From positions 1 to 64,000 of the forward strand of contig WGMU01000114.1 in the NCBI GenBank assembly GCA_016124895.1: a stretch of 64,000 nt of DNA, read 5' to 3'. This stretch comes from a bacterium. GTDB lineage: Bacteria; Planctomycetota; Planctomycetia; Planctomycetales; Planctomycetaceae. This document shows positions 1 to 53,180 of the stretch, one piece after another. Made by a program: the position numbers and the translations under genes. The notes under the pieces are model-generated. The model was not told the DNA's origin. It was given only the letters and a program-made list of their open reading frames with translations, and searched no databases. How positions within the stretch are numbered: the stretch's first letter is position 1; the number at the start of each line of letters is the position of its first letter.

Positions 1-37
1 AGCAGTCTGGGGTACGTGGCCCCGGCGGCGTTCGCGC

Positions 38-52052: not shown

Positions 52053-52546
52053 TCCGCTGAACGAACACAGGCTCTCTCAGAGCGACTTGTGGCCGACACA
52101 TCAGATTCTCTGGACCAGTTGATTTGCGGCGAGTTCAACATCTGCTCGAAGAATCTCTGCGCAGGATCCACCATTGCGCCGGTCAGCTCAGCGACGAGCA
52201 GCTCTGGCAGCGACCAGCGGCAGGCATGAACAGCGTCGGCAAGTGGATTCCCGAAGCGAGGCGTGGAGGTGTCCCTCTCTGAACTTCGGCTGTGAACAAT
52301 TGCAGTCGTGCTTTTCTGCTGCAGTCAACGACAGCCACTCAAACTATTCGCGAGAATTCTGTCATCGTTCGGAAGTTTTTCTGCACAGGAATCTCCACCC
52401 TGCCGAATCCCACAACAGCTATTGGACGTCGAATTCACAGCGGGTTGATCAGGCTCAATTCGAGACGATCGCGTGCGCGGAGAACGACTTCCGGGCACGG
52501 AAAAAGTCGCCCCGACGTTTTTTATCCGTGGTCGGCAAACCGGAGC
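52053..52546. other. Intergenic region, no gene seen
   Basis: About 490 bases after glgB and before the promoter of the acidic protein gene. Short frames are open, but none has a recognisable sequence or ribosome site. No repeat with perfect arms was found. Confidence 0.4.
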
Positions 52547-52575
52547 TTGACACGTTCCGGTCGTTCAAATAATTA
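52547..52575 (+). promoter_or_regulatory. Near-consensus sigma-70-type promoter
   Basis: TTGACA (52547-52552) and TAATTA (52570-52575) are separated by exactly 17 bases. The -35 box is a perfect consensus and the -10 box is close to consensus. The implied transcript would start near 52582 and leave a 5' leader of about 90 bases before the acidic protein gene. Confidence 0.8.
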
Positions 52576-52674
52576 ACCGCGCGCATTGCAGAGGATGGGT
52601 AAGCAGCCCGCTCTGCTGAACCTGATACAGCGTCACTTGATTACGACTTAGACTGTCAGAGCGGAGCACCGGAA

Positions 52675-52977
52675 ATGCCTCTGTCATGGGAAACCACCGA
52701 CTGGAAACTGACTGCCACCGATGCCTCAACCGGCAGCCGATGCGCTGTGCTTGATGCCCGTCTGGAAGACGAAGAAAACGACGAGTCCTTCTACGACGAC
52801 GGAGATGAAGACGACGTCGACGGCGACGACGAATGGGACGACGACGACGATGATGACCTGGACGACGATGATGATGAGGACGATCTGGAAGACGAGGACG
52901 ATCTCGACGACGACCTCGATGATGATGACGACGACGAAGACGATGACTGGGACGACGACGACTTTGGTGATGACTGA
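52675..52977 (+). CDS. Small Asp-rich acidic protein
   Basis: A 100-residue protein with a non-repetitive first third (MPLSWETTDWKLTATDASTG, then SRCAVLDARLEDEENDESFY) and an almost purely acidic remainder of Asp/Glu with a few Trp, Leu and Val (DDDDDDLDDDDDEDDLEDED type). No signal peptide or membrane segment is seen. It is flanked by a consensus promoter and a strong terminator, which makes it a genuine single-gene unit despite its low complexity. Asp-rich tails like this can bind calcium or other cations, or act as a histone-like acidic chaperone; none of this is shown. Highly acidic small proteins are often seen in planctomycetes. Confidence 0.75.
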   Translation: MPLSWETTDWKLTATDASTGSRCAVLDARLEDEENDESFYDDGDEDDVDGDDEWDDDDDDDLDDDDDEDDLEDEDDLDDDLDDDDDDEDDDWDDDDFGDD

Positions 52978-53007
52978 GGTTCCGTCCTGAACGGGAAGCG
53001 ATTCAAG

Positions 53008-53041
53008 AACGACCGCCGCACTGCTGGCGGTCGTTTTTTTG
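53008..53041 (+). terminator. Rho-independent terminator of the acidic protein gene
   Basis: AACGACCGCC (53008-53017) and GGCGGTCGTT (53026-53035) form a perfect 10-bp stem with a GCACTGCT loop, and a T-run extends to about 53041. It lies 30 bases after the stop codon. Confidence 0.92.
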
Positions 53042-53052
53042 TGCGCGGCGCG

Positions 53053-53180
53053 GGGGGAGCAGGGAAAAGGCAGTGGGCAGTAGTGGCTGCGGAACAGCGG
53101 ACAGGACGAGTGTGACGTCCATGAACTCACCTGCTGCCCGTTTCCCACTGGCTACTGCCTGCTTCCCGCTACCTCCCTCC
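53053..53180. repeat. Purine-rich GGCAGTGGGCAGTAG-type inverted repeat
   Basis: GGGAAAAGGCAGTGGGCAGTAG at about 53063-53084 is partly complementary to CCCACTGGCTACTGCCTGCT at about 53146-53165. Similar CAGTGGGCAGTAG strings are common in planctomycete intergenic DNA as I recall them. The arms are diverged. The rest of 53181-53545 up to the exporter gene has no convincing gene. Confidence 0.45.

Follow-up and report, generated by a model that had tools for sequence, protein, structure and literature searches.

Stand-alone genes for small acidic proteins in planctomycetes: an apparently undescribed family with a common promoter layout and a recurrent gene order

Introduction

Long acidic stretches are found in proteins and peptides of quite different kinds. 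The delta subunit of RNA polymerase (RpoE) of Firmicutes is a small protein composed of a folded N-terminal domain and a long, acidic and disordered C-terminus. The acidic domain of APLF, which is part of a larger eukaryotic protein, is described as holding histones via aromatic anchors (PMC9328677). In the leader peptide MgtL, acidic residues are located near the start, and the peptide acts on the downstream gene mgtA (PMC11282234). Such early acidic residues are reported to destabilize ribosomes (PMC11282234, PMC9718836); the ABC-F protein EttA aids ribosomes past them, and EttA-dependent synthesis is stated to require acidic residues within the first 30 positions (PMC11282234). According to PMC9718836, the ribosome tunnel holds about 40 residues, and early aspartate and glutamate are avoided by many, though not all, proteomes.

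Here we describe a locus that shares features with each of these systems. It is located in a window, by which we mean the whole analyzed stretch of 64,000 nucleotides, from a member of the Planctomycetaceae (contig WGMU01000114.1), and it encodes a protein of 100 residues, 59 of which are Asp or Glu (net charge -56). Like the acidic domain of APLF (PMC9328677), this protein has a presumably disordered acidic stretch with spaced aromatic and hydrophobic residues, but it is the product of a stand-alone bacterial gene and not a domain with a known partner within a larger eukaryotic protein, and the likeness is one of residue pattern. Like the delta subunit, it is a small protein from bacteria that ends in a long, acidic and apparently disordered C-terminus; unlike delta, whose N-terminal domain is recognized by a family model, it has an N-terminus of just about 36 residues in the family, and Pfam and NCBIfam had no matching model, either for the protein of the window (E up to 1) or for eight relatives (E up to 0.01). 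With MgtL-type leader peptides it has in common acidic codons that would be hard to translate. Unlike in MgtL, where such codons fall within the first 30 residues, the acidic run begins at residue 31 in the window protein and near residue 36 in the family, and many units carry their own terminator, which argues against regulation of the MgtL type, where peptide and controlled gene share one transcript. A search of open-licence papers returned nothing on such a planctomycete protein, and the family appears to be undescribed in the libraries searched.

Organization of the locus

The window belongs to a genome of 8.13 Mb in 195 contigs, in which the acidic gene lies on contig C62 between a GlgB gene upstream and a gene for an MMPL-type exporter downstream, the latter starting more than 500 nt beyond the terminator. 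The relatives of the gene have other neighbors. G001, the single further genome of this genus (84% complete), yielded no counterpart of the acidic gene, and the MMPL neighbor had no match there at E 1e-20, leaving no counterpart place to compare. The layout reported in the preliminary description, i.e. a promoter, an acidic open reading frame (ORF) and a terminator with a 10-bp stem, was confirmed by direct reading of the sequence (Table 1), and its view of the locus as a self-contained unit is supported by the conservation of promoter, terminator-like hairpins and reading frame. Two ORFs on the minus strand (52726-53148 and 52791-53021), valine-rich and serine-rich, are the mirror image of the acidic codons and are not necessarily genes.

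Table 1 Features of the acidic mini-gene unit (positions within the window)
Feature	Position	Strand	Basis and remarks
-35 box TTGACA	52547..52552	+	Direct sequence reading; inside GCTTGACA (52545-52552)
-10 box TAATTA	52570..52575	+	17-nt spacer after -35; alternative AATAAT at 15 nt
5' leader	52582..52674	+	Start site inferred; without family-wide structure
Ribosome-binding site GGAG	52663..52666	+	8 nt before ATG; sequence
Acidic mini-gene, 100 aa	52675..52977	+	ATG 52675, stop TGA 52975-52977; relatives, selection
Non-acidic N-terminal spacer, 30 codons	52675..52764	+	Composition
Acidic tail, begins EDEE, with Leu/Trp/Phe residues	52765..52974	+	Composition
Intrinsic terminator	53008..53040	+	10-bp stem with arms AACGACCGCC (53008-53017) and GGCGGTCGTT (53026-53035), 8-nt loop, T-run 53034-53040

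The term consensus promoter, which had been applied to this site, holds for the -35 box, a perfect TTGACA, but not for the -10 box, which agrees with TATAAT at two of six positions; a generic promoter scan of the window region did not return the TTGACA-17-TAATTA site. The window promoter is credible because it is conserved across the family: CTTGACA is located 86-174 nt 5' of the start codon in the window, where TAATTA and ATG are 99 nt apart, and in 36 relatives, which were collected by a pattern containing CTTGACA. The 31 distinct promoters of the family have a -10 region rich in A/T 15-18 nt past the -35 box, about the distance of TAATTA in the window; unlike the final T of TATAAT, TA is common in these regions. 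The family promoter is sigma-70-like, and high expression of the window unit is plausible from its -35 box. GGAG or GAGG precedes the start codon in many relatives. Throughout the window's own genome, GCTTGACA-(16..18)-TANNNW occurs seven times, versus 30 times for the reversed control. Two near-identical promoter-like strings starting with GCTTGACACTTGACAG were noticed on separate contigs of this genome (C30:39100-39130 and C163:29604-29634) and perhaps represent a duplicated element.

The suggestion that the leader might be regulatory found no support, as 64 family leaders fold like their dinucleotide shuffles (mean z 0.0, with two leaders below -2). The leader of the window itself has mild structure (z -1.6; equalled by 16 of 200 shuffles), and all Rfam matches over the window region remained under their gathering scores. 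On the shuffle comparison, a regulatory RNA common to the family was rejected.

The stretch past the window's stop codon folds with -31.8 kcal/mol (z -2.3; equalled by 4 of 200 shuffles). A generic terminator scan, which scored just five pairs of the 10-bp stem, gave three terminator-like sites in 2.7 kb versus 2.4 expected by chance. By a rule of our own, a terminator-like hairpin is present within 130 nt past the gene in 36 of 68 family loci; among mononucleotide shuffles the figure is 61 of 680. The locus of G186 sits at a contig end, and its downstream side is absent from this scoring.

Relatives in the class

A search with the N-terminus in 59 genomes, including the window's own, gave one clear homolog, in G007 (E 0.011), which is preceded by AGCTTGACA; most of the weak matches that were translated looked like chance. 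Profile searches added relatives in G059, G008 and G060. In G008, a sequence resembling a whole tRNA gene by eye precedes the acidic gene, and the last part of a similar sequence can be seen in G060. A first genome-contig scan found no relative, plasmids gave no match, and searches of the window's own genome with the N-terminus or the DNA revealed no second copy.

Because low-complexity tails cannot be aligned trustworthily across genera, common descent of the family rests on position and layout. Further members were collected by pattern. CTTGACA combined with EDEE codons matched 11 of 170 genomes of the window's taxonomic family versus 15 of 170 for the reversed control, so that this pattern alone proves nothing, though six of the 11 matches were acidic mini-genes when the loci were read. 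A longer pattern, CTTGACA followed by six acidic codons beginning 218-278 nt on, matched 42 of the 170 genomes versus four for the reversed control. With the permuted box CTTCAGA, an acidic run was found in 13 of 170 genomes; of these matches, one was identified, in G110, where the overlap shows it to be the same gene. A small acidic protein is encoded in 37 of the 42 matching genomes; G073, G095, G152, G161 and G189 were dropped because the matched ORF is not a mini-gene, although G152 and G161 do carry an acidic mini-gene upstream of the gene for purine nucleoside phosphorylase (PNP). The window itself falls outside the longer pattern, since six acidic codons in a row first appear there 291 nt on. 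Two of the loci read (L118 in G161 and L012 in G052) show recurring small proteins with an acidic start, a zinc-ribbon-like pair of CPxC motifs and a C-terminal hydrophobic segment as seen by eye.

Class-wide, GCTTGACA followed by an acidic run occurs in 40 of 397 genomes versus one of 397 for the reversed control, and 34 of the 40 matches are such genes (20 of 22 inside and 14 of 18 outside the window's taxonomic family); G419, G309 and G221, which are not mini-genes, and G335, from which no ORF was obtained, were dropped. Among 352 genomes of other classes, the same search gave six matches, none a member once translated; as the pattern misses many true members, including the window, this zero does not amount to absence. 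A similar protein is encoded in G273, from another taxonomic family, with no CTTGACA in the 220 nt before the gene. The set of 69 members used below has start codons set by rule, three of them reset by eye, and leaves out G144 (no start by rule) and the similar-looking G273 and G328, the last of which is counted among the 14 genes outside the taxonomic family.

The window gene has the CTTGACA promoter, the ORF of about 100 residues, the short spacer and the acidic tail that characterize these genes, and by its layout it is a member of an apparently undescribed family of stand-alone acidic mini-genes across the organism's class. Its link to the members located next to PNP runs solely via the short EDEE-type motif that it shares with G007, G059, G008 and G060.

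Gene order

A PNP gene lies directly downstream on the same strand, 45-335 nt past the stop codon, in 19 of the 37 pattern-found loci (10 genera), which were collected without using PNP; the copy of G117 scores above the cut-offs of NF006054 and TIGR01700. A terminator-like hairpin is present between the two genes in 15 of the 28 loci where the terminator script detected PNP. Starting from PNP in 30 genomes of the taxonomic family, 25 of them without a match to the longer acidic-run pattern, we found an acidic gene upstream in 19 and none in 11. In the loci of one other family, f2, which were chosen regardless of their neighbors, the order acidic gene, small TPR protein, PNP occurs in seven of seven (three genera), and the same order is seen in G024 of the window's taxonomic family; in f3, a TPR gene follows the acidic gene after 195-1078 nt in five of five loci. 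Among named records, close relatives of the family's PNP are labeled Planctomycetaceae, Gimesia and other planctomycetes. In the best 80 loci of 589 relatives, an acidic ORF upstream of PNP, at most 3 kb away, is present in 15 of 27 labeled Planctomycetota, including Gimesia, Isosphaeraceae and Pirellulales, versus none of the 53 others, some of which have little upstream sequence; there is probably overlap between several of the 15 and the genomes of the family searches.

Since PNP adjacency extends over many genera and named planctomycete records, the acidic gene probably lay upstream of PNP ancestrally. A position upstream of PNP or of TPR and PNP is thus frequent, not universal, and PNP is also absent beside the acidic gene in G007, G059 and G027. 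The window gene lacks it as well: the PNP gene of its genome is on another contig and is not preceded by an acidic ORF within 1.5 kb, so that the window copy has probably moved.

Properties of the protein

The protein had been called almost purely acidic, which applies to residues 31-100 (79% Asp/Glu) and not to the 30-residue non-acidic start. AlphaFold, run on the single sequence, gave a mean pLDDT of 58 without secondary structure or a folded domain. Aspartate and glutamate swap between the tails of relatives, and the non-acidic positions are of a restricted kind: in 69 tails, F, L, W, I and M make up 700 of 1005 non-acidic residues, versus 1.5-5% under random point mutation of Asp/Glu codons. 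Hydrophobic residues are most often spaced five apart, with Phe or Leu at about every fifth residue, a regularity beyond mutational expectation as looked for in an acidic chaperone, and the C-terminal residue is F, Y or L in 41 of the 69 proteins. Pooled over 17 pairs, pN/pS is 0.19 for the tails and 0.45 for the N-termini (simple counting; some pairs share a member, and some are saturated). The reading frame is thus conserved among relatives, as the preliminary description had asked, and the purifying selection on the tails indicates that the protein is being kept.

The non-acidic N-terminus, whose conservation was also raised there, is fairly constant in length and variable in sequence. The median start of the acidic part is residue 36 (quartiles 31.5 and 38), with 58 of 69 members between 27 and 45, while spacer sequences differ widely between genera. 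Of the 11 members outside this range, two are effects of the start rule, which picked a late Met in G076 and G078 so that their spacers read as 3; three members of one genus (G031, G115 and G116) have no spacer, which counts against a role related to the ribosome tunnel. A spacer of about 36 residues is roughly of tunnel length and would fit the published destabilization of ribosomes by early acidic residues (PMC11282234, PMC9718836). An ABC-F gene is located immediately upstream of the acidic gene in three f3 genomes (L162, L163 and L164). The two of these neighbors that were scanned have EttA models as top matches, under their cut-offs, and score above the cut-off of a ribosomal-protection-like ABC-F model; a tie between an EttA-like ABC-F protein and translation of the acidic run is suggestive only.

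Possible functions

From this anatomy we infer a disordered polyanion whose binding to basic partners relies on both charge and hydrophobic anchors, a reading that we prefer tentatively and hold at somewhat below an even chance. The protein would be abundant in the cell, its tail would grip basic proteins by charge, for example at ribosomal, nucleoid or RNA-polymerase surfaces, the hydrophobic residues would act as anchors, and the bound proteins would be shielded, the polyanion acting as an acidic chaperone or mimic. The main role of the N-terminal 36 or so residues would be to occupy the ribosome tunnel and thereby allow translation of the acidic run without ribosome drop-off. The complete version of this proposal, a strongly promoted polyanion-chaperone gene in which a tunnel filler selected for its length permits more than 50 acidic residues and Phe and Leu provide the grip, is rather doubtful as a whole. 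A cation buffer that stores Mg2+, Ca2+ or polyamines with low affinity and high capacity, comparable to the acidic ends of calsequestrin-type proteins, would account for 59 acidic residues in 100, for the net charge and for the interchange of Asp and Glu, but it would not need a hydrophobic residue every five positions; the regular Phe and Leu, over-represented beyond mutational expectation, favor protein binding over plain ion buffering, and we consider such a buffer unlikely. The same anchors on a polyanion, together with the finding of no second copy in the window's own genome, are compatible with a nucleic-acid mimic acting on one enzyme instead of a general chaperone, as the acidic tail of the delta subunit acts on RNA polymerase, yet with no folded domain predicted from the single sequence (pLDDT 58) and no Pfam or NCBIfam match, this is judged equally unlikely.

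The gene order raises the possibility that the protein is a ligand of the small TPR protein encoded nearby, its tail or C-terminus docking in the TPR groove. A same-strand TPR gene within 1.1 kb downstream in all f2 and f3 loci and in G024 and the terminal F, Y or L agree with this, but within the window's taxonomic family the TPR gene appears in the available flanks of G024 only, and two TPR proteins, with Lys/Arg to Asp/Glu counts of 25:19 and 22:22, are not strongly basic, which makes docking improbable. It is distinctly improbable that the ORF is a sensor in which ribosome drop-off on the acidic run reports Mg2+ or translation stress and controls the next gene in the manner of the MgtL leader peptide: acidic runs do destabilize ribosomes (PMC11282234, PMC9718836) and an ABC-F gene precedes three f3 members, but the run mostly begins past residue 30, the leaders are unstructured as a set, terminator-like hairpins follow the gene (36 of 68 loci) and precede PNP (15 of 28), and the distance of more than 500 nt between the window's terminator and its next gene, the MMPL exporter, points the same way. 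That a non-functional low-complexity ORF arose by chance after a promoter-like sequence is hardly credible; simple repeats arise easily and the EDEE pattern alone did not exceed its control, but promoter, frame and neighbors are conserved and the amino acids are under selection.

Significance

What looked like an isolated oddity has become a family present in many planctomycetes and outside the coverage of Pfam and NCBIfam, probably because low-complexity proteins resist alignment; it was revealed by promoter and gene order instead. Planctomycetes have an unusual cell and nucleoid organization. In these organisms, the family would serve as a natural test case for the translation of long acidic runs in cells, and it may be considered a candidate bacterial acidic chaperone.
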